Shown piece by piece: positions 1 through 61,519 of a stretch of 64,000 nucleotides of DNA; position 1 is the stretch's first letter, and the number at the start of each line of letters is the position of its first letter. The notes under the pieces are model-generated. The model made no database searches and was not told the origin of the DNA. It saw only the letters and a program-made list of their open reading frames with translations. The stretch lies in NCBI GenBank assembly GCA_945893365.1, contig CAMDED010000009.1:1-64000 (forward strand), given 5' to 3'. Origin of the DNA: Candidatus Sulfopaludibacter sp. SbA3 (GTDB lineage Bacteria > Acidobacteriota > Terriglobia > Bryobacterales > Bryobacteraceae). Made by a program: the position numbers and the translations under genes.

Positions 1-2
1 CC

Positions 3-80
3 GTGCTGCGGTTGGCGACGACAGCGCGGCGAATCATCGAATGGCTGGAAGCGACGAGACTGCTGCCGATCTCCGTCTGA
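3..80 (+). CDS. 3' end of an unidentified gene (partial)
   Basis: An open frame enters from the left edge and stops with TGA at 78-80. Its 25 residues are rich in Leu, Arg, Ala and Ile, as in an amphipathic C-terminal helix, and end in LLPISV. The other two plus frames also stay open here, so the choice rests only on protein-like composition and a clean stop. No family can be named. It could equally be non-coding. Confidence 0.25.
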   Translation: MLRLATTARRIIEWLEATRLLPISV

Positions 81-430
81 CGCCGCCTGGCCGAAGATTC
101 TACACTTTCTTGCTTATCGACGGATTTGCAGGCCCTATTTCGCCCCAAAACCGGTATTCTTGCGTGCGGAGTGTCAGCAAAGCCACTGAATACCGGAGAA
201 ACGCTCGCAAGCGGCATCGGACTGGCGCAGACGAAGCCGGATCGACGCGGGGACTTGCTCGGGACTGCGCCATCTACCCTCCCGCCCCCCCGTCCGCTAC
301 GCTATCGACGGATTAGGGGATAGTAATAGTGCTCCCCGGCCAGACGGCCCTCGCGTGGAAGTTGGCGCTACCTTCTCCACGCTAAGGCCTCTCTCGGTCA
401 TGTTGACGGGAAAACGAATTCGAGTTGTTG
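81..430. other. Intergenic stretch, no gene seen
   Basis: This stretch lies between the possible gene end at 80 and the folC terminator. The short open frames are Arg/Pro-rich and look like GC-driven chance frames. I see no RNA gene and no mobile-element end. Confidence 0.5.
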
Positions 431-44637: not shown

Positions 44638-44864
44638 ACGCCTTTGCGAATCCGGACGATAGGAAACCTGAGCGGGACGCGGGCTAGCGCCTGTCGAACT
44701 CTTCGCCGGGCTCGCCACAAATACGCACCTAATTCTCTCCTGGCTTTGGGGCAAGCGGTAGTGCCGCAACAGTTGAGGTGTTAGCGGCTGTCGAACGTTT
44801 TCAGGGCGGTAGGCGGCCGAGGGCAGGCACGGAATAACCCGTGCTTCCGCAAGCAAGCAGCGGC

Positions 44865-45345: not shown

Positions 45346-45728
45346 CTGCAACGGAATATGAACCCGGAGTGCCGGGCGGCTTGAGACGAAGGCGCAGCCA
45401 GATTTCGCAGTCGTGACCGGACAGCGGGCGCGCTGGAGTACGGGACTCCTTGTGGGTGCTGGAACTGGGTCGAGTAGGCGCACGCGTTTCCGCGCGGCCA
45501 TTCCGCTGATCTCTGCCCATCCGCACCCACTCGATCCTTGCATCGCCTTATTCCGCAGCGGGAGACAGACGATGCAACGTCAGGACCGACTTGCTGAAAA
45601 GGCTTGGCCCGCACACGGCGAAAACTGTGGTACATTGTTTGATCGGCCCGTCAAGTGGTTGTCTACGGCTGTGAATTACGAGGAACGCAGAATCAAGACG
45701 ATTCGCGTCAGCCTCGACTGGTTTCAGA
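45346..45728. other. Junction region between comM remnant and kinase gene
   Basis: No gene is supported in these 383 bases. It contains the break point of comM and the upstream region of the kinase. I see no inverted-repeat ends or target-site duplication of an insertion sequence. Confidence 0.4.
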
Positions 45729-46892
45729 GTGCAAATCGGCTCCTATCTACTTAAGTCTCAGCTTGGCAAAGGCGCTATGGGCACTGTCCACCTCGCCCTA
45801 GACACGAAGTTGAACCGGCTCGTCGCGATAAAGCTTCTTTCCGGTTATCTGGCCGATGCGGTCGCTTGCCGCCGATTCCAGCGCGAAGCGCAGTTGGCGT
45901 CGTCACTCAACCATCCGCACATCGTCACGGTCCACGACGTAGGGGAATTCAAGGGCCGCCAATTCCTGGTAATGGAATATGTGGACGCCGGAACGCTCAA
46001 GGATTGGAGGCTGCACGAACAGCACGAGTGGCGCGACGTGCTTGAAATGCTGGTGGGCGTCGCCGATGGCTTGGCTGCGGCGCACGATGCCGGGATCCTG
46101 CATCGCGACATCAAGCCGACGAACATTCTAATCACCAGGAGCGGCTATGCGAAGCTCGCGGATTTCGGTTTAGCAAAGCTGGCCGCACAGCCCGCTTACG
46201 AGGACGGAACTACGCGCACGATGAGCGTCGAACTCACCCGCCCGGGCACGCTCGTCGGGACCATCGCGTACATGTCGCCGGAGCAGGCGTCCGGCCGAGC
46301 AATAGACGCGCGCACCGACATTTTCTCATTCGCTGTTATGCTTTACGAGATGCTCGCGGGCCGTCGGCCGTTCGAGGGCGCGACGGATTTGGAGATTCTA
46401 CAAAAGATCATCGGCGGTTCGCCTTTACCACTGGGCCTTGAAATCCCATCCTCGGTCCGCGCGATGGTGGAAAAGGCGCTGGTGAAGGACCCGGCCCAAC
46501 GCTATCAGTCGATGCGCCTCATGGTGGCGGAGATGCGCCGTCTAATGCGTCTCAGTACAGATGGAGTTGGTGACGCGGTGAAGAGATTTTTATTTTTCGT
46601 TGGAAAACACCAACAGGATGAACCAGCGGAGGCCCTGTGGCCCTTGTACGGCGTTTCAGATCGTGCATCAGCATTTTTTCAAAGAATTCAACTTGGTGTG
46701 ACTCTCACTCCGGAACTTGATAGCCTCCGTACAGAGCTAGGGCACGATGTGTTTAACTCGACGATGAGATATTTGCAGGAGCAACGCTTAGTTGAGCCGA
46801 AGGGTTTTCAGACAAGGACTGGATTGTCCTTGTTCCTGAAATTGACTGAAACCGGGCAGCGCGAATTCGATAAGATCACCGAGGCTCGTTAG
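45729..46892 (+). CDS. Serine/threonine protein kinase with a winged-helix-like C-terminal region
   Basis: The GTG start gives 387 residues. The kinase domain (about 1-270) is complete: LGKGAMGTV glycine loop, VAIK Lys35, HRD 125-127 with KPTN, DFG 145-147, and GTIAYMSPEQ activation segment. There is no transmembrane helix and none of the usual TPR, WD40 or PASTA tail. Residues about 275-387 form a separate region ending TPELDSLRTELGHDVFNSTM, RYLQEQRLVEP and LFLKLTETGQREFDKI. These look like a winged helix-turn-helix with a wing and C-terminal helix. DNA in the tail (near 46580-46640) is more AT-rich than the kinase part, which hints at a recent fusion. Targets are unknown. Confidence 0.88.
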   Translation: MQIGSYLLKSQLGKGAMGTVHLALDTKLNRLVAIKLLSGYLADAVACRRFQREAQLASSLNHPHIVTVHDVGEFKGRQFLVMEYVDAGTLKDWRLHEQHEWRDVLEMLVGVADGLAAAHDAGILHRDIKPTNILITRSGYAKLADFGLAKLAAQPAYEDGTTRTMSVELTRPGTLVGTIAYMSPEQASGRAIDARTDIFSFAVMLYEMLAGRRPFEGATDLEILQKIIGGSPLPLGLEIPSSVRAMVEKALVKDPAQRYQSMRLMVAEMRRLMRLSTDGVGDAVKRFLFFVGKHQQDEPAEALWPLYGVSDRASAFFQRIQLGVTLTPELDSLRTELGHDVFNSTMRYLQEQRLVEPKGFQTRTGLSLFLKLTETGQREFDKITEAR

Positions 46893-47833
46893 CTGATTAA
46901 CGCCCAGCGAACGGGTTGAGGGTGGCGCGGTTGGGAACGTGAAGCCCGACGATGCGTTATCGGACAGCAACAGATCCGGCTTGCGCCTCGCTGGTGTGAG
47001 GTCGACACGTATTTTAAAATGGGCAAGTTTTTGGGACTGCGCAGGACGCCCGCGGCAGCAGGCTTCCGAAAATCTCCGTGCTGGAAACACCCGCACGAGC
47101 GACCATGTAGGATTAATGACACCGACCCTATGCCGTTTAGCGAAAGGCTTGATGGTCGCGGAGGCGAAGTATGGTTCGGAAACTGGATGCGCATGAATCT
47201 GCGATGGGTCCTACCTTAGCGCCGTGTTCGCGATAGGGGGCTTCGAAGACGCACGGAGTTCTCCGACCCCTTCCGGTTTATGCTGATCGTCGCTTCGGGT
47301 GGATGAACAACCGCCAACTGGCCGTTGACGGCCTTCACGTCGAGAACCGAGTGTTACGCGAGCAAGCGGCGACCGCGCATCAATGACAAATCAGCGCCGC
47401 CGATTAGCCGTCAGTGCCAAAAGCTTGAGACGGAAGATTCTGGCCGAGGTGGCCACGATAGTCACGCACGAGACCTTGCAGTGAAGACTCGCTTACCAGA
47501 TCTCGTCATGAACCGTCGAGCGGAGTCGCTACTCCGGGCGAGCCCAAAGAAACGGCTTTTGGTAAAGTTGGCGAGGGATAAGCTTGGCAGGGCAAGTCGG
47601 ACGTCGAAACAGAACGGAGAGAGCCGAGAGTCCTCAAATGGCCGCCAGTTGCGCACCTCACACGGGGCCACGCTGTCAATCAAACCGCAAGATTAGCAGC
47701 GAGAGAATTTGCGGCTCCGCCTTTCTGACGGAACAGTGGTACTGCATCGGCCGCAAATGGTTCAATAGGGCGGGAGAGTGGAATCTCTCTGGCACGGGCA
47801 AATATCTCCATGTAATGCCACGCAGGAAACAGT
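46893..47833. other. Long gap without a supported gene
   Basis: In these 941 bases the open frames (for example 47325-47696, 123 codons, basic and low in hydrophobics) do not look like real proteins, and no decayed family could be recognised. It may be former coding DNA or long spacer between accessory genes. Confidence 0.4.
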
Positions 47834-47839
47834 TAGAAT
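47834..47839 (+). promoter_or_regulatory. -10-like hexamer for the FG-GAP gene
   Basis: TAGAAT ends 9 bases before the ATG at 47849, again with no separate ribosome binding site. Confidence 0.45.
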
Positions 47840-47848
47840 ATCTAGGTC

Positions 47849-50800
47849 ATGATGAGCGTCAGCCAGTTGCTCACATCAGCGATCCTCGTCCTCCTGGGTC
47901 CGCTTCAGGTTCTTGCGGCTGCGCCCTCCTCCGTCTCGCTCGCGTGTTCGCCGAATCCAGCGCGATTCGGGCAACAGGTGACTCTGACGGCGATCATCTC
48001 GCCTGGCACCGCTACCGGAAGAGTCACGTTTTACGATGGCGTGACGGTGCTGGGGATGGGCTCTATCATCAACGAGACGGCTAGTTTGAAGACCAACGCC
48101 ATTACAACCGGCACGCGTTCGCTGCGCGCTTTCTACGGCGGCGACTCGGCTTACGCGCCATCTGGTTCCGTACTGGTGCCGTTAACCGTGACGCCATCGC
48201 CCGCTAACGGCTTTCTTCCTCCGCTCAGCTACCGCACACGGGATAGCGCCACCGGGTCGGTGACCGTGGATGATTTCAATGGGGATGGAAAGCCGGACTT
48301 GGCAGCGACAGGCGTCGGTTCCGTCTGGATTCGGCTAGGGAACGGCGACGGGACCTTCGGGGCTCTCAGTTCCTACAGCGCAGAGTCTTTCCCACATTTC
48401 GTGTTGACCGGGGACTTCAACGGGGATGGGAAGAGGGATCTCGCGATTTCGGGACAAGTAGGAGGACAGAGTACCGTGGCCATCGGACTCGGCAACGGCG
48501 ATGCGACGTTTTCTCCAGCAGTGATCTATCCTACTCCGGATTCCGGCTTGAACGCGACGACCGGTGATTTCAACGGAGACGGTCTTACTGACATCGACAC
48601 CGGTTCCGGGGTCCTCCTTGGCAACGGCGATGGCACTTTCAAGCCTTTCATAAGCCACGGTTTGGGAAACTTCGCATTCTTCGTTGTTGCAGGCGATTTC
48701 GACGCCGATGGCAAGACCGATTTGGCAGGCGACACGTCCCCAGAGCGTTCAGTTTTCGTCTTGCCTGGCAAAGGCGACGGAACATTCGGTGCCACAGTGA
48801 GAGGGGCTGTTTTGGCTGACGCCTGGAGCATCGCAACCGGGGACTTCAACGGCGACGGGAGGAGCGACCTCGTAATCGCCGATCACCAGAACAAGGCGGT
48901 CCGAGTCCTTCTCGGCAACGGCAATCGTACGTTCCGGCCTGCCGTCACGTACGCAACGGGATCCAGTCCCTACGACTTGGCCGTCATCGATTTCGACGGT
49001 GACGGAAACCCCGACATAATGACCGCGAATTTGGACGACGACACCGTTAGCGTGCTGCGGGGTAATGGTGATGGCACGTTCCAACCGGCCGCCGCGTTTT
49101 CAGCCGGCACGCATCCGCAGTACATGGCGACTGGCGACTTCAATGGCGACGGGCGGATCGACCTCGTTCTGGTAAGCAACGGAGTACCGACTGTCACCAT
49201 TCTGCTCGGTTCGCGGACGGCTACCGTTACAACTCCTGCGATCGACCTGGGCGGCATTATCAGCGCAACCGGTAATACTCAGTTAAAGTCCGCATCCCCA
49301 GGGTCTCTCATTTCTATCTACGGTGTACGACTGGCCGCCTTGTCGCAGGCGGCGACCGCGAGTGCGACTGGCCGTCTCCCACTATCCCTCGCTGGCACAT
49401 CGGTCACGATCGGAACTACGAGCGCACCACTGCTATACGTCAGCGCCAGCCAAGTCAATGCTCTTGTGCCATTCGATCTGGTATCCGGTATCTACCCTGT
49501 GACTGTCACCACCGCTGCGGGGGGCCCAAGCGCACCCCAAAATCTGAAGGTGACGGCCACGGCGCCCGAAGTGTTCGGTGGTGCCGTCGTCAAGTTGCCT
49601 GACTATTCAGTCGTTAGCAGCGCCAACCCGTTTCGGCAGGGAGACGTACTGGTGATTTACTGCACGGGTCTTGGCGCCGTTTCACCGGCTGTGGCGACCG
49701 GTCAATTGGCCCCGGCGAGTCCCCTGTCGAGCACGGTGTCATTGCCATCTGTCACGATCGGAGGCCGAGCCGTTCAAGTGGCAAATGCGGTTCTGAGTCC
49801 GGGATTCGTCGGGTTGTATCAGATCGGGATTATCATTCCGTCGGGGATTCCCAGTAATGCGCAGTCGCTGGTCGTGAGCATCGGAGGAATATCGTCTCCT
49901 TCCTTCACGGTCTATTCAGGTCCGGCAGCGAGTCCGGCCTGCGCTGACGTCTCGGGGTTGTGGAATGTGAAAGAAACAGTCAACATAACCTGGCGCATTA
50001 CTGTCATGGGACAGACTCAGGTGGATACCGAAACTGGCAGCGGGAGTGGAACTGTGACGGTCGTTCAGAACGGCTGTTCGATCAACTACGATCCGGTCGC
50101 GACTTCTGGCCTCATCCCTGAGCAACTCACAGCTGCTCAAATCGCTTCTCTTCAGCGCACGGGGACGGTATCAGGGAACACGGTGATCGTCAAGGGGCTG
50201 CTTGCGCTTATCGACTTCGTTGCCGCCAACACGTCGGGCGTCACCGTCAGTACGAACACAGCTAGCGGGACGGGGCAGTTTTCTGGTTCCGTGATCCAGT
50301 TTCAGTGGACCGGGAAGCTCGCGTTCTCCGGCAATTTCGCCGGTGTTGGTTTCGCTTCGGTTACGGGTGATGCGACGTCGACGGCGACGTTCAGACGACC
50401 TATCACTACCGTTGACAATCTTGAGGTGACGTTGCCAGCGACCCCGAATGCGGTAAGTGGCGCCGCGCCGACCGTTGTTCCCGCCATTTCCAACAACAGC
50501 TCATCGGCTTTTGCGAGTGATACCTCAAGCGATCTTGTAACCGTGCTAAAGGATTCCGGTGCAGTCACAGTGACCGCCAAGAATGTGCAACCACAAGCGA
50601 ATACCAACCAGATTCAATGGCGTCTGGATCGCGATCCGACGGACACGATTGATACAGCAATGCCCGCTCTCGGCGACTCCACAGGCCCGCAAACAACGTT
50701 TAAACCGAGTGCGGCTGGAAACTTCAGGCTAATTGCCTACGTCGATGTCAACGGAAACGGCACGTTTGATGAAGGCGAACAGTTGCGGGTTCTGCGGATG

Positions 50801-51538
50801 GCAATTGTCAAGGCCACATTGCAACCTAACTCCTCATTCTTTCTGCAGAATACCGTGACCGGGATTGGGCTGACGAAAGTGACAACTTTAGACTCCAGCC
50901 GGGTACCCATGAAGCTGCAAGCAGCGTACCTTCTCGAGGGAGGTGGACCCGGACGAGACATTGGCACCCGAGCCATCACGATTGGTGACATCGGTAATCT
51001 GGTCAGTGACACTTTCGCGATCAACTATCCGGTGCCATCTGGGGGCGCGCCGCCACCGGGCAACGTGGCCGGTACAGAGGTGGAACAGCCGGGGGGGCCG
51101 ATGCCTATGGTTGATACTCTCAATGTACAGAAGGATGCAGAACCCAACGGCGGCACAACGGCGTTTCGAGCCAACTCGAACATGAGCGAACTGCCCGCCC
51201 CGAGCGGCGGACGGCTGGTGCAACTGAGCAGCTTCGACGCGCCTGAATTCAGTTGGGACAGTAATCACCCGACAACAACCAACTCTTGGGGTTCAACTGC
51301 GGGCGCAAATTCGTTCCGCGAGCTAGTCGTAGCTTTCTCAAATAGTTTTAGACGCACATATCTGCTCTTGCATCAGGCTGCATGGACCGTCAACGTGGTC
51401 GGCGTTAACAAAGGAAGCGTGTGGGTTGACGCTGGCTCGAGCGTGACCGGCGATACAGCGTTTCAAGCCCCGACAGCACCAGTTCAAGCGGTGGGGTTGT
51501 CCTTCGTCAGACAGGTTGGTTTAAGTCATACGCCATAG
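47849..51538 (+). CDS. Large secreted protein: Ig-like domain, FG-GAP/VCBS repeats, TIGR03437-type domain
   Basis: The 1229-residue protein has a signal peptide (to about residue 25). An Ig-like domain (about 28-112) includes RVTFYDGVTVLG and YGGDSAYAPS. At least six FG-GAP/VCBS units (about 125-455), each with a Ca-binding core such as DFNGDGKPDLA or DFNGDGRSDLV, would form a beta-propeller. Residues about 470-690 match the TIGR03437 Acidobacteria-type domain (GSLISIYGVRLA, SASQVNALVPFDL, GDVLVIYCTGLGAVSP). The C-terminal 500 residues are beta-rich and unassigned, with a DVNGNGTFDEGEQL calcium loop. It is likely cell-surface or extracellular, in binding or adhesion. The next gene follows after 11 bases. 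Confidence 0.88.
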   Translation: MMSVSQLLTSAILVLLGPLQVLAAAPSSVSLACSPNPARFGQQVTLTAIISPGTATGRVTFYDGVTVLGMGSIINETASLKTNAITTGTRSLRAFYGGDSAYAPSGSVLVPLTVTPSPANGFLPPLSYRTRDSATGSVTVDDFNGDGKPDLAATGVGSVWIRLGNGDGTFGALSSYSAESFPHFVLTGDFNGDGKRDLAISGQVGGQSTVAIGLGNGDATFSPAVIYPTPDSGLNATTGDFNGDGLTDIDTGSGVLLGNGDGTFKPFISHGLGNFAFFVVAGDFDADGKTDLAGDTSPERSVFVLPGKGDGTFGATVRGAVLADAWSIATGDFNGDGRSDLVIADHQNKAVRVLLGNGNRTFRPAVTYATGSSPYDLAVIDFDGDGNPDIMTANLDDDTVSVLRGNGDGTFQPAAAFSAGTHPQYMATGDFNGDGRIDLVLVSNGVPTVTILLGSRTATVTTPAIDLGGIISATGNTQLKSASPGSLISIYGVRLAALSQAATASATGRLPLSLAGTSVTIGTTSAPLLYVSASQVNALVPFDLVSGIYPVTVTTAAGGPSAPQNLKVTATAPEVFGGAVVKLPDYSVVSSANPFRQGDVLVIYCTGLGAVSPAVATGQLAPASPLSSTVSLPSVTIGGRAVQVANAVLSPGFVGLYQIGIIIPSGIPSNAQSLVVSIGGISSPSFTVYSGPAASPACADVSGLWNVKETVNITWRITVMGQTQVDTETGSGSGTVTVVQNGCSINYDPVATSGLIPEQLTAAQIASLQRTGTVSGNTVIVKGLLALIDFVAANTSGVTVSTNTASGTGQFSGSVIQFQWTGKLAFSGNFAGVGFASVTGDATSTATFRRPITTVDNLEVTLPATPNAVSGAAPTVVPAISNNSSSAFASDTSSDLVTVLKDSGAVTVTAKNVQPQANTNQIQWRLDRDPTDTIDTAMPALGDSTGPQTTFKPSAAGNFRLIAYVDVNGNGTFDEGEQLRVLRMAIVKATLQPNSSFFLQNTVTGIGLTKVTTLDSSRVPMKLQAAYLLEGGGPGRDIGTRAITIGDIGNLVSDTFAINYPVPSGGAPPPGNVAGTEVEQPGGPMPMVDTLNVQKDAEPNGGTTAFRANSNMSELPAPSGGRLVQLSSFDAPEFSWDSNHPTTTNSWGSTAGANSFRELVVAFSNSFRRTYLLLHQAAWTVNVVGVNKGSVWVDAGSSVTGDTAFQAPTAPVQAVGLSFVRQVGLSHTP

Positions 51539-51549
51539 GAGATTGCGCT

Positions 51550-52479
51550 ATGAAGTTTCTCTTGAGTCTGATTTTTATCGCCGGTAGTGTTCACATGTTT
51601 TATCTTGTGGCCCAGGTTCGCAGCCACCTGGACGAAGATTACGGTGTTGGCTTGGCGGTAGGGCGATGCCTAGTAGCGAAGTGTAAGGTCTTTCGCGGAT
51701 TTCTGGCGACAGATTCTCCAAAATCTGGGACACCTGTGACGGTAAAAGTGCAGGAGGAACTGTTCGGGATGTCCCACCAGACGGCGATAGTGAGCGTGCC
51801 ATACTCAACCGAAATCTTGCCAAAAGCCCCGTCGGAAAGCCCTGGGTATGTGTGGGAGAAAGTCAGACTTTCAAAAAACGCCCCTCTCACTATCGTCCTT
51901 GCAACGGAACGTGTTGGACACGTCGAGCCGGGTGCAGCGGTTTTTGTGACCTCGGACGAACGGACCGCCGAAGAGATCCGTTCACTCACGGACGTCGCGA
52001 AGCGACTCGCCGTCTCACCGGACAGCATCTCCGAAGTCGTAGCATCACTTGCCAGCATCATCAATCCCACCTTAGCTGGTTACGTGCACATGTATCTCGT
52101 CCACTTTGAAACCAGAAGAAATCCGGATCGGGGTTCGGCGCTGCTCGTCGAGTTGGTAGGAAGCCCGAGTATACCCTCAGGGTCTTGGGAGTCAGTCGCT
52201 GTGGACGCACAAGCAAACTATTATCGGTCGTCTTTGGCGGGCCGGGCGACAGTCGTTGGCCGCTTTGCTGAAATAGCCCAGAATTCAGATGTCCGGGCTG
52301 CAAGTGCAGCTTTACGCGGGCTGGAAAGAATTGCCAACGATGACCAGTCTGTTCGGAGTCTGCTGCCTCCTGCGGCGTTGAGCGGGCTTGGCGACTCGTA
52401 TCGAGCCCTAGTAACGAAGGGAAGCATTCAAAGAATTCGAACGCTGGAGTCAGAGTTTGGGATCGCATATCGGCCTTAG
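51550..52479 (+). CDS. Secreted or membrane-anchored protein of unknown function
   Basis: The 309-residue product begins MKFLLSLIFIAGSVHMFYLV, a signal peptide or anchor. TAGGAG is 9 bases before the ATG, and the gene starts 11 bases after the FG-GAP gene, so the two are probably co-expressed. The first half (about 25-150) is beta-rich with Cys39 and Cys45, and resembles domains that bind in the envelope (GTPVTVKVQEELFG). The second half (about 150-309) is helical, with AASAALRGLERIA recalling a HEAT-like repeat. I do not recognise a family. Confidence 0.65.
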   Translation: MKFLLSLIFIAGSVHMFYLVAQVRSHLDEDYGVGLAVGRCLVAKCKVFRGFLATDSPKSGTPVTVKVQEELFGMSHQTAIVSVPYSTEILPKAPSESPGYVWEKVRLSKNAPLTIVLATERVGHVEPGAAVFVTSDERTAEEIRSLTDVAKRLAVSPDSISEVVASLASIINPTLAGYVHMYLVHFETRRNPDRGSALLVELVGSPSIPSGSWESVAVDAQANYYRSSLAGRATVVGRFAEIAQNSDVRAASAALRGLERIANDDQSVRSLLPPAALSGLGDSYRALVTKGSIQRIRTLESEFGIAYRP

Positions 52480-52775
52480 AGAGCGGTAGGCGACGAACGA
52501 TAGACCAAATGCCCTGACGTGTGAAGTTGTCCGTCTTGGGCCAACATTGTCTCTTCAGTGTTGAACCGGCGTCGATAATCTTCCGGAGAGCCCGGAGAAA
52601 CGGCCGTCGGCAGAGCTGGAAAAAGGGTAGACTTGGCGGGGCACGTCGACTTCCAGGAACCGGAAGGGTCACGACTCCTACCAGGCGGCGTTTCAGCGGC
52701 TGGTGAGGGATCTCAAGGCCGAAGAGGAAAACGGGAGGGGTTACCTCCGACTTCCGCTCAGTACGAACCGCAGAA

Positions 52776-53300
52776 TCAAAGCGAGTCGCCGCAACTCGGC
52801 CTCACCGAACAACCGCGGCACTTTTGCGGAATCCGATGGCTTCTTTCGACGGGGACGCCGCCCTTCGCAGCCCGAATGGAGAGAATGATCCCAAGAACCC
52901 ATTCGCGTTTCTTCTGAGTGAAGGGAACCCGTACCTCGCGGTCCCGATAGCGCAGGATGCCCTCTGGAACCGGCCTTCCCATGCTGTCTTCCACCAGCAG
53001 GCAATAGCCCATCAGCTGCGCGACGTGATTGTCGAACGGGCCGCGTGCCGGGCAACGTGAGCTCTTGAGCTCCACCGGCACAAGGCCTTGATCCGTCTCG
53101 ACGAGGTAGTCCGGCCTTCCTACAATACCGTGTCGATAGGATACCAGCCTGGGGACCATCGCTCCCGCATCTATGGTGTCCTGATAGATGATTTCTCCGT
53201 CCGGGAGCCCTGCCTGCCGGGATGCCCGCGCCGCAAACAGGTGCGCGAGCGATGCGGCTGCCAGGAGCAGTCCAACCGCGATCACCAGCACCCAGATCAT
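52776..53300 (-). CDS. Cas4-like nuclease, C-terminal half (catalytic PD-(D/E)XK core) with N-terminal membrane helix
   Basis: The 174-residue product starts with a membrane helix (WVLVIAVGLLLAAASLAHLF, 3-22). The catalytic part of a Cas4/Dna2-type RecB nuclease follows: GRPDYLV with Asp64, PVELKS with Glu77 and Lys79, and QLMGYCLLVE (Gln95, Tyr99). The C-terminal Fe-S type cysteines are Cys161, Cys164 and Cys170 (CRGCSVRPSC). The N-terminal Cys and the His region of Cas4 are absent here and lie in the preceding gene. The ATG overlaps that gene's stop as ATGA with AGGAG just before it, so the halves are coupled. No cas1, cas2 or CRISPR array is in the window. A longer frame from 53423 lacks family features. 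Confidence 0.8.
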   Translation of the reverse strand: MIWVLVIAVGLLLAAASLAHLFAARASRQAGLPDGEIIYQDTIDAGAMVPRLVSYRHGIVGRPDYLVETDQGLVPVELKSSRCPARGPFDNHVAQLMGYCLLVEDSMGRPVPEGILRYRDREVRVPFTQKKREWVLGIILSIRAAKGGVPVERSHRIPQKCRGCSVRPSCGDSL

Positions 53301-53581
53301 ACTCCTGCTCGCCACAGCGTCACGAGAAATGCAGCCAATCCCAACGCAATCGCGATGCACCAATTTCGAACGCGCCTCGCCTTGATCGAACGGGCAGCCG
53401 TTCGTCCATGTGCCACATGCCACTGCCGGCCCGCTTCGATTTTGGGTTCACTCTCGACGGCGGGTTGCACGCCTTGAATCCGGAGCTTCCAGGCGAGGTT
53501 GCAGTAAACCCAATCGCCGAGTTCCGAGACTCTGATCAAGCTGTATGGCTCCCTTGTTGGCGGCAACGGTGGGTTGCTCAT
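53297..53581 (-). CDS. Cas4-like nuclease, N-terminal half with C-terminal membrane helix
   Basis: From the ATG at 53581 the product has 94 residues. IRVSELGDWVYCNLAWKLR (Cys27) and EAGRQWHVAHG (His55, His58) correspond to the N-terminal part of Cas4 proteins, which carries the first cluster Cys and the active-site His. A basic stretch (SIKARRVRN) and a membrane helix (WCIAIALGLAAFLVTLW, 74-90) end the protein. An upstream ATG at 53611 would add ten residues. With the next gene it reconstitutes one Cas4 domain interrupted by a two-helix hairpin. I recall single-chain homologues with such a hairpin in environmental genomes; here the chain is cut between the helices. Confidence 0.72.
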   Translation of the reverse strand: MSNPPLPPTREPYSLIRVSELGDWVYCNLAWKLRIQGVQPAVESEPKIEAGRQWHVAHGRTAARSIKARRVRNWCIAIALGLAAFLVTLWRAGV

Positions 53582-54242
53582 GAAGATAAGAGTGCCACTT
53601 CTCATCGGCATCTCGCACGGATCGACCGAGTTCGTGACACCGCTTCCCGGTACCCGAAGGGCGAGTCAGAGTTCGAGCCTGAAGGCGGCCTCGGCACTGG
53701 ACACCTCGTGGCCATAAGGTACGGAGATGGTACTGAACGCTCGTCTGCGTCGTCTTAACCGGCAGGTGCTTCAGCTGCAGTGGGTGACGTAGTCGTAGAC
53801 GTTCTATCAGCCCGAGGACCGCGAAGTCCTCTGCGGCCTGGAAAATGCCGGGAATGGAAAGACGCCCGTTTCGTTTCTATGGCGTCGTGGAGCGTGGTAG
53901 TCGCGGCGAGCCCACCGAAACCCGCAACTGGATGTTGCGGCGCGGGCCGAAGAACGGAAGCGGTTCTGAAGGATGGAGCCCGGGGTTGGGTTCAGTCAAA
54001 AGGACGCAGCAACCTGCGAGGCGCTACGATGGGGATGCGTTTCGCGGATGCGGTCATCGACAATTGATCCTCGCCGATAATGGGATTGCGGTTTCCGCGC
54101 CACTTTTGGATGAATACATGTAACGCCATGTTAAATCCGGCTTGCACCGGCTTTCTCGCAAAAGCTGTTTTTCGCTTCTATGAGGGGATTCGCTGCGAAG
54201 AGCCTTGGGGCCATTACGACCGGGGTCGGACGCCGTGGGAGC
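53582..54242. other. Gap between the Cas4-like pair and the surface-polymer genes
   Basis: In these 661 bases no gene is supported. Open frames of 90-95 codons (53780-54123) are Gly/Arg-rich and show no family features. No direct repeats of CRISPR type are seen near the Cas4-like genes. Confidence 0.4.
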
Positions 54243-55376
54243 ATGATCAAGCAGGCAACGTTGATCTGGAGTAAGCCCGCAAATCCGGCCGCCATCTTGC
54301 GCGCTGTCAAATGGTGTCGCAATGCCAACGGTGTTACGTTCTATGCCGAAAGTCGGGCTGATTGCGCTCACTTCGCTGAGATAATCACCACTCTGACCAG
54401 CCATTGCGATATACCAGTCTGTTACCTCACCTCGGACCCCGCGGATCCGGCCCTCGAGCGAACGGAGGACCTGTTCCGGTCCGCGTATGTTGGTTCAGGC
54501 GTGATCCGCACATGGTTGTTTCAGACTATCGATTGCCGTGTTGTGGTAATGACCATGCCCGAACTGAACCTCTACCACCTCAAGCGATCTCACTACCCGG
54601 TCCACTACGTGTACCTGTTTCATGCGCTCAACAGCACGCATATGATCTACCGCAATCGTGCATTCGATCACTACGATTCCGTGCTCTGCGTTGGCCCTCA
54701 CCACGTGCGGGAACTTCGTCGTTCCGAACAATTGTACTCGACGCACGGCAAGCAGTTGATCGAGTGCGGGTATCCGCGCCTGGACCGTATCGTCCGGGAG
54801 TCCACCAGGACCAACGTACGCAGCACTGACGTGGTCGTGGCGCCAACGTGGGGGCCGAGTTCGTTTATTGAGAAGCCCTACGGGCCCGACGTAATTGAGG
54901 CTATCCTCGACGCCGGGTGCACAACGCGGTTGCGGCTCCATCCCATGACGCTTCGTCACCACCCTAAGCTCCCGGCGCAACTTCTCAAGCGATTCCAGCG
55001 CGACACTCGGTTTGAACTGCAATTGGATATGAGCGAAACAGACTCATTGATGAAAGCAGGCCTTATGATTACCGACTGGTCCGGCGCAGGACTGGAGTAT
55101 TTTCTCGGGACTGGACGTCCGGTCATCTTCATCGATCTGCCGCCGAAGATCAACAATCCCGACTATGCGCAGCTCGGCTGCATGCCGATCGAACTATTGA
55201 TTCGCAATGAACTAGGGACCAACATCAGCGTCGGCGATTGGCGAAGTCTCACCCTTTGTATCAGACGGGCGCCCGACGTTGTTCCGGGTGCGCTGGAGTT
55301 CCGGCGGCATTGGGTCTTTCATAACGGTGACAGCGTCAAGGCGGCCGCGGACTACATTCGCTCACTTGTCCGGTAA
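54243..55376 (+). CDS. CDP-glycerol glycerophosphotransferase-like protein (TagB/TagF family)
   Basis: The family polymerises or primes polyol-phosphate chains from CDP-activated alcohols on the inner membrane face. I start at the ATG at 54243 (377 residues); the frame opens 21 codons earlier. Conserved features are YLFHALNSTHMIYR (the FHG-like His), CVGPHHVRELRRSE, ECGYPRLDRIV and VVVAPTWGPSS. Next come LRLHPMTLRH and MITDWSGAGLEYFLGTGRPVIFIDLP, the TagB/F nucleotide-binding end. It is shorter than full TagF (about 700), like a single-unit primase or transferase. It converges with, and overlaps by 15 bases, the next membrane enzyme gene. Confidence 0.82.
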   Translation: MIKQATLIWSKPANPAAILRAVKWCRNANGVTFYAESRADCAHFAEIITTLTSHCDIPVCYLTSDPADPALERTEDLFRSAYVGSGVIRTWLFQTIDCRVVVMTMPELNLYHLKRSHYPVHYVYLFHALNSTHMIYRNRAFDHYDSVLCVGPHHVRELRRSEQLYSTHGKQLIECGYPRLDRIVRESTRTNVRSTDVVVAPTWGPSSFIEKPYGPDVIEAILDAGCTTRLRLHPMTLRHHPKLPAQLLKRFQRDTRFELQLDMSETDSLMKAGLMITDWSGAGLEYFLGTGRPVIFIDLPPKINNPDYAQLGCMPIELLIRNELGTNISVGDWRSLTLCIRRAPDVVPGALEFRRHWVFHNGDSVKAAADYIRSLVR

Positions 55377-57029
55377 AGTTCTCTCGACCAACCAGGCGTT
55401 TGCGTCCTCTGCGCTCTTTACGGTCCCTCGCAAGATCTCCAGGATCAGATCTCCGGTCACCGCCGCGTTCATCGGGCGACCGAAGACCACACCTCGGTCC
55501 TGACCCGGCATCTTGAGAATAAATATCGATCGATGATCGGTCTTACCGTCAAATACTTGGGAGGATCGGCTGCGGTGGTCCGAAGCAACCAGTACAGCGG
55601 TACGATCCCAGAGCCCCCGTTGTTCCATCGCAAGGCGGAGTCGGCCTAGCGTGAGATCGCAAAGCGCTAGGCTATCGGGATAGCCAGTGATCGGACTATT
55701 GACGAGCGAGAAGTCCCGCTTTTGCCGGTCGTAGACGTGCGGCGGGTGCGCGCCGTGCAAATGGAGAAAAGCAAGATCTATGTCATCGTTAATCGCCAAC
55801 TTTATGGCTTCCCGCGTCAGGTTCGCCACGTCTTCGATGTGCTGGCGAAGGCAGATCGATTGCCCGAAAGGTGAGAAATTCTTAGTTTCAAGCAAACTAC
55901 GCAGACCATCGATAGTCGCTCCCGTGAGCCCAGCGCGAATGCTATTGTCCGGACGCACGGACTCACACCACCAGCAGTGGTCCAAGTCTCTTCCGAAGAG
56001 CCGGCAATACGGCATGCCCCATCCCGCCACCGCCGAACTGAACCCCAGAGCCCCGGCGCGCCCGAACAGATGTACTGTTTCCGCAAACTCCGACTCCACC
56101 GGGCTACCCTCGAAGCTCAGTCCCAGGCGCGCCGGCCCTAACTCCCGTGTGCGCAAAACAGTTCTGCCCGTGAGCAGTGACGTGACGGCCGTATCGGTGT
56201 TCTCACCAGCCTCGTGGACGGCGTTCGCGTAGATAGCCGTTGATCGCAGCCGGTCAAACTCCGGCATCTCAAGGACCCTTGGGCGGTCCTCAAACGTGAT
56301 GCGCTGATCCATCTCATCGAACAAAAGCCAGACGACTCGCGACCCCGAGGTGCGGCCATGTCCCCGATGCGCGCGGGCTGCATCGGAAACGGCGAAGGCC
56401 GCGGGAGGAGAGAAGAAGTTCCATAATGCCTGCCCGGTCGTAATCAAGGCGAATGGCGATGTGAGGAGCAGCAGAAAGCAAAAGACTCGGCAAGTTTGCC
56501 GTCCCAACCGCATTATCACTGCCACGGCAAAGACGAGCGCCAGAACGCATAGTACTTTCACTGCAAGTGGCCCGTAAGCGCGTACGAGCCCAAAGCGGAG
56601 CATCGGGAAATATCGTGCCCCGACGACATCGCGCATGGCGTTTAGCGGGACCGCGGACAGCGCCAACAGCGCCGCGGAGCATACCGTTCCTATAACGTCT
56701 GGGCGCGAAATCTGTCGAACTATTGGCCAGATCAGTAAGGCAATCACAAGAAGATCTACCAATGCGCCCGCGAAGTGAGTCCATGGAGGAGAGGCTTTCA
56801 TTTCGAACGCGTCTGATTCACTGAAACCAAACAAGTCCGTCCAAACCCGCAGCAGCGTGAGGTTCGCGAACGAAAGGGCAATAAGCGCACCAGAAATGCC
56901 CCGCGACGGATCGCTCGTTAAGAACTGGTGAAGTTTGGAGTAACCGCGCCGGAGCACAAGATACAGGGCCACGCCCGTAGAGACGAGTAGTTGGCCAAGC
57001 AGCGCGCCCACACTGGGATCGATGTACAT
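55362..57029 (-). CDS. Membrane-anchored alkaline-phosphatase-superfamily (sulfatase/phosphoalcohol transferase-like) enzyme
   Basis: The 555-residue protein has about six membrane helices in residues 1-205. A catalytic domain in the alkaline phosphatase superfamily follows. Features are VVWLLFDEMD (metal Asp/Glu), AVTSLLTGR (Thr nucleophile position), HLHGAHPP and VLVASDHRSRS (metal Asp-His). This topology matches lipoteichoic-acid synthase and phosphoethanolamine transferases, although the overall length and motifs are not those of LtaS. The neighbouring TagB/F-like and LicC-like genes support transfer of a phospho-alcohol to an envelope glycan. Donor and acceptor are not known. Confidence 0.75.
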   Translation of the reverse strand: MYIDPSVGALLGQLLVSTGVALYLVLRRGYSKLHQFLTSDPSRGISGALIALSFANLTLLRVWTDLFGFSESDAFEMKASPPWTHFAGALVDLLVIALLIWPIVRQISRPDVIGTVCSAALLALSAVPLNAMRDVVGARYFPMLRFGLVRAYGPLAVKVLCVLALVFAVAVIMRLGRQTCRVFCFLLLLTSPFALITTGQALWNFFSPPAAFAVSDAARAHRGHGRTSGSRVVWLLFDEMDQRITFEDRPRVLEMPEFDRLRSTAIYANAVHEAGENTDTAVTSLLTGRTVLRTRELGPARLGLSFEGSPVESEFAETVHLFGRAGALGFSSAVAGWGMPYCRLFGRDLDHCWWCESVRPDNSIRAGLTGATIDGLRSLLETKNFSPFGQSICLRQHIEDVANLTREAIKLAINDDIDLAFLHLHGAHPPHVYDRQKRDFSLVNSPITGYPDSLALCDLTLGRLRLAMEQRGLWDRTAVLVASDHRSRSSQVFDGKTDHRSIFILKMPGQDRGVVFGRPMNAAVTGDLILEILRGTVKSAEDANAWLVERTLPDK

Positions 57030-57293
57030 TAGCAGCCCTCGGGAGGGTTACTATTGAGACCCGAATAGCGGCGCGACCAAAGAGTGGCGCGAGCATTGAA
57101 GTCACCCGCGGAGCCGGGAGGGAACCGAAGAGCCCCACTCAAACTGCGCGGCACTCTAATATTGACCGGGACACCGAAAGGCTCCCCGCTCATGTGTTCA
57201 CCGCAACGGCGATGTGGCTGTGCTGAATTCGAGTGAAACGACCCGCCCATCGCCGCGGGCCACGAACGTAGTGTCTGTGATGTGGCGTCCAAG

Positions 57294-58580
57294 TCAGTTG
57301 GCCTCTGCTGCGTCGTGCCATAGTGGGATGAGAAAAGCTGCGGAAACGAAGGCTGCAAGCGTCCAAGAATTGAACACGGCATTCCAACCGACAACATCAA
57401 CCAGAACACCAGTTAGGACGGTATTCGCTGCGACACCAACATATCCGATCGAATCAACGAAGCCTGTTGCTGAGGCGACGGTCTTCCCGAAAGCGAAGTC
57501 CATAGGCGCAACGCCGACGATGAGCATGTGAGCGCCGAAGATGCCGGCGCCGATCACACCAAGCACAATGAGACCAAGGCTGCCATTACCACTGAGCACG
57601 CTTCCTCGGTATGCCAGAGTCAGTAATCCGGCGGAAACTAGGCACACGAATGCGATGGGTGCACGCCGGCCCGCGAGCATGCGATCGCTTAGCCAGCCGC
57701 AGCCCACGACGCCAGCGCACCCCGCAAGAGGAAATACTAGTGATGAAAATGCAGCCTTGGTAATGCTGACGTGTGTAACTTCGAAGAGGAATGAGGGCGC
57801 CCAGAGAAGAAATCCGTAGCGTACGAGGTTCAGGAACAAGAGGGATAAAGCCAACAGGCGAAGCCGGGGAGTTCTGATCGTCTGCCATAGAGTCTGACGG
57901 ATGCTCTTTGACACGCCCATCGTTCCACGTGGGTCTTTCGAATCTGTGAGACCCAGGTCCTCCGGTGGTTGATCTCTTAGGACAAATGCGATGCCGACCG
58001 CAACCAAGATCATCAGACCCGCCGGAGCAAGAAAAGAGGAACGCCAACCCGCGCGACCGGCGAAGTAGCCGGCAAGCCCCACAGAAATTGCGCCACCTAA
58101 TATGTAGCTCGTGCTGACGGCAGCGGCCGCGCGGCCACGCGATCGGGCTGGAAACCATAAAGCAAGGGTTTTGATCACAAGGGGCCAAGCGAAAGCCTGT
58201 ACATATCCGTTAGCGGCCCAGAGAATTTTTACCGTCAATACCGAATTCTGCGTGGCTAGAAGTACGTTGATCGCCGCGGAGACACCGAGAGCGATCGGAA
58301 GGGAGATCCTCGCACTTAAGCGCTCCGCTAATTGACCATTGAGCAACAATCCTGCAAGATATGACCAATAAAACGCGGAAGCAACTGCGCCCGCCTGAGC
58401 GGCTGTCCAATTGTATTCAGAACGTAGTCCCGGAAGCGCAACAGAGATATTAAGCCTTCCAAGATAAAAGCTTGCGTAAGCGAGCCACAGAGTACATAAA
58501 ATCAGAAGTTGACTGCGAGTCGTGTGGCATCCCTGCAGCGGCAGTCGAGTCTCATGGTGTCCGGCGGCCGGAGCCATCAT
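57294..58580 (-). CDS. MFS transporter, organophosphate/hexuronate-like
   Basis: The 428-residue protein has about 12 membrane helices. LWLAYASFYLGRLNISVALP, early loop EYNWTAAQAGAVASAFYWSY and the second-half GWLSDRMLAGRRAP fit the anion:cation symporter and organophosphate:phosphate antiporter (GlpT/UhpC) groups. The ATG overlaps the nucleotidyltransferase stop by 4 bases (ATGA), so the two are coupled. In such a pair it may import the alcohol or its phosphate (choline, glycerol phosphate or similar) for activation. Direction and substrate are inference. Confidence 0.82.
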   Translation of the reverse strand: MMAPAAGHHETRLPLQGCHTTRSQLLILCTLWLAYASFYLGRLNISVALPGLRSEYNWTAAQAGAVASAFYWSYLAGLLLNGQLAERLSARISLPIALGVSAAINVLLATQNSVLTVKILWAANGYVQAFAWPLVIKTLALWFPARSRGRAAAAVSTSYILGGAISVGLAGYFAGRAGWRSSFLAPAGLMILVAVGIAFVLRDQPPEDLGLTDSKDPRGTMGVSKSIRQTLWQTIRTPRLRLLALSLLFLNLVRYGFLLWAPSFLFEVTHVSITKAAFSSLVFPLAGCAGVVGCGWLSDRMLAGRRAPIAFVCLVSAGLLTLAYRGSVLSGNGSLGLIVLGVIGAGIFGAHMLIVGVAPMDFAFGKTVASATGFVDSIGYVGVAANTVLTGVLVDVVGWNAVFNSWTLAAFVSAAFLIPLWHDAAEAN

Positions 58581-59347
58581 CGTACCTTCGCCGACGCGTG
58601 CAGCCGATCCCTTACGCGTTTTACGTCCTCTGGCGTGTCGAGTTCATCCCACATACCGAGTACTGGAACAGGCTTAACCTTGAGGCCCGATTCTATCAAT
58701 TCCTTGATCATGTCCGTTAGGTAGGCTTGCCGAAGGCTTCGTGAAGAATGAAAAGGAGAATTTCGCGCCGAATTCTTCAGCGCCACGTACCGGAGCCGCA
58801 TTTCGACCGCAGCCCGCGCCGAAAAATAAGACAAACCGATGAACTCGCCCTGCACGGCGTGCGCGTCCAAGTGCTTGCCTATGTCGCATACGTAGCCGCC
58901 AGAGACCGCGGTCTTTTCCGCCTCTCCCTCGGGGTGGAGGGATCTTCCTGTATATCTACGGCGCCAGTCCGGATCCGTGGCAAGAGCGACGTCGGCGTCA
59001 GTCGCCACGAGTCTCTTTACAACATCGGCTTCGTACAAAATGTCGGAGTACGAAACGACGATCGGCCGATCGAGGTCTTCGGAGGCACACATGAGCGATT
59101 CCAGGATGTTGTTGTGCCTCCAAAGTGAGTTCCTTATGAACCTGAGATCGGGGTAGGCTTTCCGGATAGCATTCATGCGGAAGCCACCGACGAATACAAT
59201 TTCGTCGATCCCTGCTGCGCGCAACGCATCAAGGATCCAGTCCAGTACACGTCGTCCATCGAACCCCGCCAGCATGCACTTGGGAAGGTCCCGCGTCTCG
59301 GGCATCATTCGCCTTCCGCGACCCGCGCCGATAATGATTGCCTTCAT
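58577..59347 (-). CDS. LicC-like nucleotidyltransferase (phosphocholine cytidylyltransferase type)
   Basis: The start at 59347 gives 256 residues beginning MKAIIIGAGRGRRMMPETRD, the nucleotide-binding loop GxGxGxRM of sugar-phosphate nucleotidyltransferases. The following LPKCML is the usual PK-Pocket. VVSYSDILYEADVVKRL holds the metal-binding Asp. ALATDPDWRRRYTGRS and the end MWDELDTPEDVKRV match LicC-type phosphocholine or phosphoalcohol cytidylyltransferases better than glucose-1-phosphate enzymes. It would make the CDP-activated donor for the polymer genes next to it. An earlier ATG at 59380 is possible. Confidence 0.82.
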   Translation of the reverse strand: MKAIIIGAGRGRRMMPETRDLPKCMLAGFDGRRVLDWILDALRAAGIDEIVFVGGFRMNAIRKAYPDLRFIRNSLWRHNNILESLMCASEDLDRPIVVSYSDILYEADVVKRLVATDADVALATDPDWRRRYTGRSLHPEGEAEKTAVSGGYVCDIGKHLDAHAVQGEFIGLSYFSARAAVEMRLRYVALKNSARNSPFHSSRSLRQAYLTDMIKELIESGLKVKPVPVLGMWDELDTPEDVKRVRDRLHASAKVR

Positions 59348-59380
59348 TGCTCGGTTGTTTGCAGACAAAAGAGGCATCAC

Positions 59381-59989
59381 GACCTAAATTCAATGACTTG
59401 AGAGTACGCCGCTTCTAGTCGGCGGCGTTACGGTTTCCCGTGTATCAGGGTGAGTTTCGTGCTCGACTTCATCCTCTCATTCTTCGCCGCCATCTGCATC
59501 TTCCCTCAGAAGGCGGGCTTGCTCCAAACACAAACGGCCGCGCCGAATATTGGAGCTCCAGGACCGACCGCCTTTGGTCCGGAGGCCGACGTCCGTCATC
59601 GGTTGGCACCGCGTCGGTCTTTCGGATCATGCAAGACAAACCGCACGGCCCGCTCGCCGCCGCTCCCACGCCAACACCGGATAAGCGTCGACCCACAGCC
59701 TCCGACGCGCCTACGTGGCCTGACTTTGCCGAGCCCACGACAAATGGTCTACGATTCAACCATGCAGATCCGGCTGGCCCGTCTTATTCTGCCTCTCTGC
59801 GGTTTTCTGGTCCCGCTCCTGGCCTGGGCTTTCGGGGAACCGCCGATAATCCCGAAAGCACGGGTTCGCGTCAGCCCCGTCGGGGGTCGAGTGCTCTCGT
59901 TGTGGCTTCAATTGTTGCCGCTCTTAAGTCGGCATCACATCAGGCGATTCCAGGTAGACGTATAACGCCCAAACCGTGGAAGTGGCATT
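59381..59989. other. Gap at the edge of the methyltransferase island, one doubtful small frame
   Basis: A plus-strand frame at 59761-59965 encodes 67 residues starting MQIRLARLILPLCGFLVPLLAWAF, which looks like a signal peptide, but the rest lacks protein character. It may be the 5' end of a secreted-protein gene cut at the island boundary. No tRNA, integrase or inverted repeat was found here. Confidence 0.35.
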
Positions 59990-60268
59990 ATGAGATTCGC
60001 GTTAGACGTGCCATGAACAACCGACGGAGGCGATCCTCCGGATGAGAGCGCTGGGGGAAACCCGTCGATCTGAGCCAACTGGCATTGGGGTTGGCGTCGA
60101 GGGCTTGGCCGTTGGCCGGTGGCTCGAGGAATAGGTACGGCGTGATCCTCCAATTCCCAACCATTGTCTGTGTAGGCCTGTAGGCCCGGTATCTGGAGCG
60201 GATCAGATCTCCACAACCAGATGCTCAGCGGCTTTCCCGATTTCGAGATCAGGGATCGCCTCGACCAT
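59990..60268 (-). pseudogene. Possible remnant of a small PD-(D/E)XK-like nuclease gene behind the methyltransferase
   Basis: Right after the methyltransferase stop (TGAATG) a frame begins MVEAIPDLEIGKAAEHLVV and stops after 21 codons. In another minus frame (from 60216) it seems to go on as DPLQIPGLQAYTDNGWELED. Together this resembles the opening of group-I-intron-type PD-(D/E)XK nucleases ('IGKAAEHLV-ADLI..G-AY..'), with a frameshift. The later catalytic part is not seen. Because the match is from memory and short, confidence is low. Confidence 0.35.
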
Positions 60269-61519
60269 TCACGCCACCACTGCCATTCGGCTTTCGGCTA
60301 CGTGTCGGAAAGACCGGCCATCGGAAGCGAGGGTGGCAACTTCGCCAGTGAATTCCTCCCAGCGCTTCAGGATGACGTCGCAATAGGCTGGATCTATTTC
60401 CAGGCCATAGCAGATCCGCCCGGTGGTGTTTGCCGCGATGATGCTGGTTCCGCTACCCAGGAACGGATCGTAGACGACCTGGCCAGGTCTGGAATTGTTC
60501 AGCATTGGACGCCGCATGCACTCGACCGGCTTCTGTGTGCCATGTCCGTGCCCGCCGTCTTCACGGGAATTGATGGACCACAAGGTCGTCTGAGAGCGGT
60601 CGCCGGTCCAGTGCCCGTTGTTCTTGACGGCGTACCAGCATGGCTCGTGCTGCCAATGGTAGTGCCCACGGCTCAGCGCGAACCGATCTTTTGCCCAGAT
60701 GATTTGGCTGCGGATCTCAAATCCACAGGCCTCGATGGACTGTTGCACGGTCGCCGCGTGCCTGCCCGCATGCCAGATGTACATTACGTCGCCTGGAAAC
60801 AGCGCCCATGCCTCGCGCCAGTCTGCGCGATCATCGTTTTCAACCCGTCCCAGCTTGGACCGATTCTTGTTCACGCCAGCCGTTGCGCGCCATTCCGGAT
60901 CGTACTCGACCCCGTACGGAGGATCTGTCGCCATCAGAACTGGGGCGACGCCGTTGAGCAACCGCCCGACGTCGCACATCAGCGTGGCGTCGCCGCACAG
61001 CAATCGGTGCTGGCCAAGGAGCCAGATATCTCCATGGACAGTGACAGCGGTCTCTGGCACTTCCGGAACCGCATCCTCGTCCGTGAGTCCTTCCGCGGGA
61101 CTGAGCAATTCTTCGAGTTCCGCGTCTGTGAAGCCGACGATATCGAGGTCGAATCCCTCCTGCTGGAGAGATTCGAGTTCGACGGCAAGCATTTCCGTAT
61201 CCCAGCCGGCGCTTAAAGCAAGACGATTGTCCGCGAGGACGAGAGCGCGCCGTTGCGTTGCCGAGAGGTGGTCGAGCACGATTACCGGCACCTCAAGCAT
61301 GCCAAGCTTCCGTGCAGCCATGAGTCGCGCGTGGCCGGCGATTATCACTCCGTCCGCACCGGCCAGGATTGGATTTGTCCACCCGAATTCGACGATGCTG
61401 GCGGCAACCTGCGCTACTTGCTCCTCCGAATGCGTCCGGGCGTTCCGGATGTATGGCAGAAGGCGATCCGTGCTCCAGTTTTGGACTTGCAGCTTCTGAA
61501 TGTCGATTATCTTGCTCAC
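60269..61519 (-). CDS. ParB-like/DNA methyltransferase fusion, DPPY (adenine-N6 type)
   Basis: The GTG at 61519 follows a GGGGGTGA ribosome binding site and gives 416 residues. Residues 15-110 are a ParB/Srx-like N-terminal domain (LLPYIRNARTHSEEQVAQVA, AGHARLMAARKLGM). A linker with DEDAVPEVPETAVTVHGD leads to the methyltransferase: LLGQHRLLCGDAT, ATDPPYG with Asp199, and FLGSGTSIIAA near the end. The catalytic motif precedes the SAM motif, the beta-class order; DPPY is usual for adenine-N6. No restriction enzyme gene is adjacent, so it is probably an orphan modifier of phage or mobile-element type. The window-end methyltransferase has a related linker. Confidence 0.9.
   Translation of the reverse strand: MSKIIDIQKLQVQNWSTDRLLPYIRNARTHSEEQVAQVAASIVEFGWTNPILAGADGVIIAGHARLMAARKLGMLEVPVIVLDHLSATQRRALVLADNRLALSAGWDTEMLAVELESLQQEGFDLDIVGFTDAELEELLSPAEGLTDEDAVPEVPETAVTVHGDIWLLGQHRLLCGDATLMCDVGRLLNGVAPVLMATDPPYGVEYDPEWRATAGVNKNRSKLGRVENDDRADWREAWALFPGDVMYIWHAGRHAATVQQSIEACGFEIRSQIIWAKDRFALSRGHYHWQHEPCWYAVKNNGHWTGDRSQTTLWSINSREDGGHGHGTQKPVECMRRPMLNNSRPGQVVYDPFLGSGTSIIAANTTGRICYGLEIDPAYCDVILKRWEEFTGEVATLASDGRSFRHVAESRMAVVA

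Follow-up and report, generated by a model that had tools for sequence, protein, structure and literature searches.

The nucleases closest to the locus described here are the Cas4 proteins (PF01930/TIGR00372; structures 8d3l and, for Cas4-Cas1, 7mi4), in which a PD-(D/E)XK core with the residues D, E-x-K and Q-x3-Y is accompanied by one N-terminal and three C-terminal cysteines, the latter spaced C-x2-C-x5-C. Cas4-type nucleases have so far been regarded as soluble single chains. In the Cas4 Pcal_0546, as far as the available part of that study goes, Cys64 and Cys200/203/209 bind the cluster, the residues of motifs II and III and of QhXXY are required for cutting, and the cysteines are required for the cluster and not for cutting; Cas4-type enzymes act there on single-stranded DNA (PMC4176176). 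The accessible text of Hudaiberdiev et al. (2017) attributes four conserved cysteines to every Cas4 and describes a monophyletic group of solo-Cas4, located outside CRISPR loci, in many Chloroflexi (PMC5704561). Here we describe a gene pair that probably encodes the two subunits of one membrane-anchored iron-sulfur nuclease of the Cas4/Dna2 type, with a housekeeping role at the membrane.

The pair lies in the window, that is, the whole stretch of 64,000 nucleotides that was analysed, and its features are collected in Table 1. Both frames, the ATGA overlap and all the residues named in a preliminary description of this DNA were present when we rechecked them, as was the division of the four cysteines between the chains, with C27 on one and C161, C164 and C170 on the other. 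The active site of chain 2 is complete (D64, E77-x-K79, Q95-x3-Y99) and its cysteines are spaced C161-x2-C164-x5-C170, so that one N-terminal and three C-terminal cysteines are found only when both chains are taken together, and in two genes instead of the single polypeptide of a Cas4. Together with C27 this is the arrangement given for Pcal_0546 in the available part of its description (PMC4176176). Translation of chain 2 would be coupled to that of chain 1 through the ATGA. An alternative in-frame start at 53611 would extend chain 1 to 104 aa.

Table 1. Features of the gene pair, in positions of the window.
Feature	Position	Strand	Remarks
Chain 1, 94 aa	53297..53581	minus	N-terminal part of Cas4-type nuclease, then membrane helix
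Chain 1 motif residues C27, A30-W31, G51, H55, H58		minus	Read from frame 53297..53581
Cys27 of chain 1	53501..53503	minus	Presumed sole N-terminal ligand of the cluster, from the Cas4 pattern
Membrane helix of chain 1, residues 76-94	53300..53356	minus	5 K/R in the 15 residues before, none after; N-terminal half predicted cytoplasmic
ATGA overlap	53297..53300	minus	Start of chain 2 over stop of chain 1
Chain 2, 174 aa	52776..53300	minus	Membrane helix, then PD-(D/E)XK core, C-terminal cysteines
Membrane helix of chain 2, residues 1-19	53244..53300	minus	Falls in a predicted helix (2-30) that no K/R precedes; C-terminal half predicted cytoplasmic
Asp64 to Lys79 of chain 2	53064..53111	minus	Catalytic motifs II and III
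Cys161/Cys164/Cys170 of chain 2	52791..52820	minus	Presumed three C-terminal ligands of the cluster, from the Cas4 pattern

Chain 2 scored above the Pfam cut-offs of both families against which the preliminary description had proposed to search it, Cas_Cas4 (PF01930; 32.3 bits, cut-off 22.7) and PDDEXK_1 (PF12705; 29.8 bits, cut-off 22), and reached 55.2 bits with the NCBIfam Cas4 model TIGR00372, below the equivalog cut-off of 65. Chain 1 of the window had no family match in Pfam or NCBIfam, and PF01930 was matched weakly by 7 of 19 chain-1 relatives (window included; best E 0.00099). The split explains why chain 2, with only three of the four cysteines, is automatically annotated as 'Cas4' and chain 1 receives no name. 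Profiles of the two chains nevertheless tile one and the same Cas4. The top PDB match of the chain-1 profile, a weak one (E 0.065), is to residues 3-59 of the type I-C Cas4 8d3l_I, of which the chain-2 profile matches residues 102-201 (E 1.4e-8). The canonical one-chain Cas4 of the window's own genome is covered likewise, by the chain-1 profile at residues 12-58 and by the chain-2 profile at residues 105-204, and PADLOC models tile one Chloroflexota pair over Cas4 in the same N- and C-terminal way.

Structure prediction pointed in the same direction. For window chain 2 alone (27 rows), AlphaFold2 gave a confident nuclease core (pLDDT 85.4, pTM 0.71), with the pLDDT falling to 59, 58 and 44 in the three final blocks, where the cysteines lie. 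In the relative L036 the chains share one frame with a single TAA between them, and the pair read through this TAA (61 mostly unpaired rows) was modelled with a pLDDT of 93.3, a pTM of 0.89 and about 95 at the cysteines. The better predicted cysteine region of the read-through model is suggestive, sequence and depth (61 versus 27 rows) also differing between the two predictions. Comparison with known structures in VIA showed that this composite has a Cas4 fold: it matched 7mi4_A with a Z of 19.3 and an rmsd of 3.0 over 182 residues (model 2..281 on chain 5..202) and aligned end to end with 8d3l_I (Z 18.2). After the Cas4 chains came AdnA (Z 14.8), EXO5 (Z 13.0) and Dna2 (Z 11.2), and the Argonaute-associated ACE1 (9iab, 9iac) was found with a Foldseek E of 4.0e-4 and a VIA Z of 10.8. 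The proposal that the two polypeptides together rebuild one Cas4-type nuclease is hence borne out by both the tiling and the fold.

Whether the helix hairpin and the split recur in homologues had been set as a test beforehand, and we found both in Acidobacteriota and Chloroflexota. Among 200 genomes of the order, two carried strong copies beyond the window's own (G150 and G081), both with the chains in different frames and ATGA at the join, the G081 pair having frame breaks elsewhere; 297 genomes of the phylum yielded one more (G488), again with ATGA. Scanning the contigs of GTDB species turned up 27 loci (9 from Acidobacteriota, 17 from Chloroflexota and 1 from another bacterium), two of which are the G150 and G081 records again. 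Chain 2 is a separate frame beginning at the membrane helix in each of the 26 readable loci. The pattern goes beyond chance, since motifs, helices and gene order are kept in 26 relatives; their chain 2 and that of the window are 36-50% identical. The partly masked L058 and L059, which has frame breaks, are absent from the 27-row alignment A3, where the D, E-x-K and Q-x3-Y residues are intact in every row. The ATGA join occurs also in L016, L034, L039, L040 and L047 (some records are duplicates: L005 = L040, L006 = L059, L080 = L035 and L082 = L044). A single-sequence scan of genome contigs with chain 2 confirmed no relative.

Comparison of genomes also showed that the two halves occur together. 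In the Acidobacteriota loci chain 1 is directly upstream of chain 2, whereas in Chloroflexota it is adjacent (as in G501, locus L064), one gene away or distant; in the 12 Chloroflexota genomes tested with a chain-1 profile chain 1 was always found, although in 7 it was not adjacent to chain 2. A count over 301 Chloroflexota genomes gave 87 with both chains, 3 with chain 2 only, 1 with chain 1 only and 210 with neither, that is, membrane-type chain 2 in 90 and chain 1 in 88 (Fisher test, kinship ignored, p 5e-71). The chain-2 figure counts genomes whose best match looked membrane-type, and the classes were made by hand: 25 of 115 chain-2 genomes were taken to have soluble Cas4 and excluded (G524, G650 and 23 others whose E-values were weaker), and likewise 4 of 92 chain-1 genomes (G518, G529, G580 and G633), among which G580, whose two matches are neighbours, is probably a divergent true pair dropped by the sorting rule. 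In the 87 genomes the chains are adjacent in 73 (two of them single-frame), have one gene between them in 5 and are far apart in 8, two of these on one contig (G712 and G792); G783 was classed as 'one gene between' (6 in the class), yet its chains overlap when read.

In the two single-frame cases, G776 (L118, 330 aa) and G527 (L124, 353 aa), the chains are naturally fused and two membrane helices form a hairpin in the middle of the protein; the figure of 2 in 87 judges unread loci by their unequal open-frame lengths. The fused proteins score 60.0 bits (L118) and 50.6 bits (L124) with TIGR00372, the cut-off again being 65. They are not sisters in the chain-2 tree, where L124 groups with the split L125 (100/99), and two separate fusions are therefore the shortest reading; the fused form looks derived within this split-Cas4 family. 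The clade that contains them belongs, we presume, to the class Ktedonobacteria. In this tree, from which we excluded L123, a broken second copy with no letters at the four cysteines, the branch of the window copy is long (1.09).

C27 is kept in all 60 chain-1 rows that cover it and C161, C164 and C170 in all 73 covering chain-2 rows, the duplicates L080 and L082 being excluded from this set. Among 74 chain-2 rows the catalytic residues are found in 74 (K79), 69 (D64) and 70 (E77). D64 is lost in L118, L124, L125 and L128 and E77 in L119 and L121, all in one divergent clade that keeps its cysteines. Not all members can therefore be active nucleases, and in this clade the scaffold may have a second, non-catalytic use. 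In valid close pairs dN/dS was about 0.05-0.25, which corresponds to purifying selection; two L036 chain 1 comparisons, whose coordinates were out of frame, are left out of this range.

Each chain has a single membrane helix, at the end of chain 1 and at the start of chain 2, as first noticed in the window, and this recurs in the relatives. By the positive-inside rule, positively charged residues mark the cytoplasmic flank of such helices. We observed an excess of K/R before the chain-1 helix in 59 of 62 rows and after the chain-2 helix in 72 of 76, in a set that includes L080 and L082; of the four chain-2 exceptions L109 is a true one, and L119, L120 and L121 have starts set inside the helix. 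The soluble nuclease parts of both chains are hence predicted, from these charges, to lie on the cytoplasmic side, in which case the cut between the genes would correspond to the outer turn of a membrane hairpin.

The company that the genes keep was examined in 75 loci. The recurrent neighbours are NadK (14 loci), a TPR-like or B-box-like gene (14), a translin-like gene (11), an HD-domain gene (10), YkuD (8), HisS (5), SSB (4) and DUF3467 (4); in L110, recN follows beyond NadK (TIGR00634, 9e-91, piece cut by the locus end). The translin-like assignment comes from weak Pfam matches (22 and 21 bits, cut-off 25.9), and two other members had no Pfam match. This gene is found just upstream of chain 1 in L046 (3932-4663), L058 (4070-4741), L106 (618-1265) and L068 (1851-2552), and the NCBIfam name of its family, 'haloacid dehalogenase superfamily protein' (PRK14562), looks a misnomer. 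The YkuD gene encodes a membrane-anchored L,D-transpeptidase-like protein, a wall enzyme inside a nuclease operon, and lies between the two chains in all eight of its loci (L043, at 305-1075, L046, L049, L050, L057, L058, L096 and L107), to which reading of L035 adds a ninth. A 210-residue gene outside the YkuD family occupies the same place in L088 (2045-2677) and L091 (2032-2664). The neighbours of the window's own pair are a glycerophosphotransferase-like gene, a sulfatase-like gene and a gene for a 309-residue protein with no family; none is SSB, translin-like or NadK, and the evidence from context is therefore borrowed from Chloroflexota. Because these genes belong to the core genome and include single-strand DNA proteins, with no defence island, we favour a housekeeping single-strand nuclease at the membrane over a role in CRISPR.

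The preliminary description had suggested that the pair could process DNA at the envelope, for example during uptake or phage entry. In such a role it would trim or degrade single strands as they pass the inner membrane in transformation, conjugation or the ejection of phage DNA. We regard this as unlikely. An anchored nuclease at the cytoplasmic face would be in the right place, and single-stranded DNA is the target of Cas4-type enzymes according to the portion of the Pcal_0546 study available (PMC4176176), but genes for competence, conjugation or defence are not among the recurrent neighbours in the 75 loci, neither is Argonaute, and none of the 42 pattern matches obtained in one scan of viral contigs was a relative. 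ComEC is present in 270 of the 301 Chloroflexota genomes, and co-occurrence therefore cannot test DNA uptake. Two related candidates were rejected: a mobile or phage origin, given the lack of a viral relative in that scan, and a defence system, given that PADLOC assigns chain 2 only Cas4-type, DruK and similar nuclease models and gave no match for the two neighbours tested, the L,D-transpeptidase-like and the translin-like one.

That the pair aids CRISPR adaptation in trans, as a Cas4 away from its cas locus, seems to us quite improbable. The best PADLOC scores of chain 2 are indeed with Cas4 models, and Cas1 is more frequent where the pair is present (67 of 87 genomes) than where it is absent (55 of 214; odds ratio 9.7), an association confounded by relatedness and genome size. 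On the other hand, 20 of the 87 have no Cas1 match, and no cas gene recurs among the neighbours of the 75 loci. The absence of a CRISPR array or cas gene near the pair, claimed from the window, held up as well. Families of direct repeats in 44000-62000 occur only at 48271-49167, inside a repeat-rich gene, and are unlike a CRISPR array, and the genome's Cas1 is found, next to a Cas4 of its own, on contig C204, the split pair being on C9 and not beside cas1/cas2. The gene in question (47849-51538) encodes a large secreted-looking protein and is the source of all the repeats near the pair, which we take to be of FG-GAP type. The locus on C204 (L160, 1-3550) comprises repeat-like DNA, Cas2-like and Cas1 genes and a one-chain Cas4 (223 aa) that scores 96 bits with TIGR00372, showing that this genome has both kinds of Cas4. 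Contig C186 of the same genome carries a further Cas4-like protein (L002, 1501-1845; 192-residue frame), 35% identical to residues 57-172 of chain 2.

It is also very doubtful that chain 2 is the working enzyme alone, chain 1 being only a membrane partner or regulator and no cluster being shared. The confident core predicted for chain 2 by itself would fit such an arrangement, as would the finding, in the part of the report at hand, that loss of the cluster in one Cas4 left DNA cleavage intact (PMC4176176). Against it, the four cysteines are invariant in all covering rows even though they are on separate genes, which are distant from each other in eight genomes, chain 1 matches the N-terminal piece of Cas4 that chain 2 lacks, and nature has fused the two chains twice.

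An artefact is extremely improbable, whether a sequencing error, a frameshift or a pseudogene affecting the window copy or programmed frameshifting that yields one protein: the frames do differ by one step at the overlap and the window copy is on a long branch, but the same split spans Acidobacteriota and Chloroflexota, the chains are on separate contigs or parted by other genes in some genomes, the window keeps all motif residues and the relatives are under purifying selection. As an account of the family it is refuted by the recurrence in two phyla, and as a general mechanism programmed frameshifting is ruled out by the same separated chains. The single-chain form in all close relatives, which the preliminary description had named as the sign of an artefact, is not what we observed, and no one-base error at 53297-53300 is needed to explain the window. 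Since other Acidobacteriota, as well as 87 of 301 Chloroflexota genomes, share the two-gene form, the split in the window is not a sequencing error.

The two-subunit nuclease that we favour would be built as follows. Chain 1 would contribute the N-terminal part of the fold, including the H-x2-H helix and the first of the four cluster cysteines, and would be anchored by its C-terminal helix, running out of the cell. Chain 2 would be anchored by its N-terminal helix, running back in, and would supply the catalytic D, E-x-K and Q-x3-Y and the last three cysteines. The halves would meet on the cytoplasmic face and, both being there, the 'iron staple' cluster would join two proteins, tying together two polypeptides and not two ends of one; such a cluster, shared across chains 1 and 2, is suggested by the conservation of the cysteines. 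The substrate would be single-stranded DNA, with ends or flaps processed at the membrane and not spacers acquired for CRISPR. More speculatively, and we hold this to be rather unlikely, the cluster could be an assembly switch, the nuclease forming only where and when iron and redox state close the staple at the membrane; if so, cells could make the halves from separate loci and hold a dangerous single-strand nuclease inactive until its activity is required at that site.

That two phyla retain a form cut at a membrane hairpin, with its four presumed cluster ligands divided between two genes, would imply a role for Cas4 folds at the membrane and outside CRISPR. The pair offers a ready test of a cluster common to two nuclease subunits and a defined pair of genes through which the function of solo-Cas4 can be addressed. 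If it is a housekeeping enzyme, genome surveys that count chain 2 as CRISPR machinery are misled.

With respect to known systems, the pair is a Cas4 homologue outside CRISPR and known mobile contexts, as solo-Cas4 are, and chain 2 is probably among the Chloroflexi solo-Cas4 of Hudaiberdiev et al. (2017). That survey states four cysteines, of which chain 2 alone carries three; in its main text, as far as available, neither 'split' nor 'two proteins' occurs and 'membrane' occurs only in a legend (PMC5704561). No report of a split, membrane-anchored, membrane-bound or transmembrane Cas4 was found in the literature searched, most subscription journals and all preprints being outside its coverage, and the split membrane-anchored form is apparently undescribed so far. 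Next in structural likeness are the iron-staple nucleases AdnA/AddB, EXO5 and Dna2 (for the latter two we follow the general view of their substrates), from which the pair differs in having no helicase part, in being split and in its membrane helices. ACE1 is likewise a Cas4-family enzyme outside CRISPR, but the match is weaker and ACE1 is a single chain in the list of structures. The closest likeness remains that to Cas4 itself, with which the pair shares the nuclease core and the cysteine pattern, and from which it is set apart by its two polypeptides, by the two membrane helices at the cut and by its location outside a cas locus.
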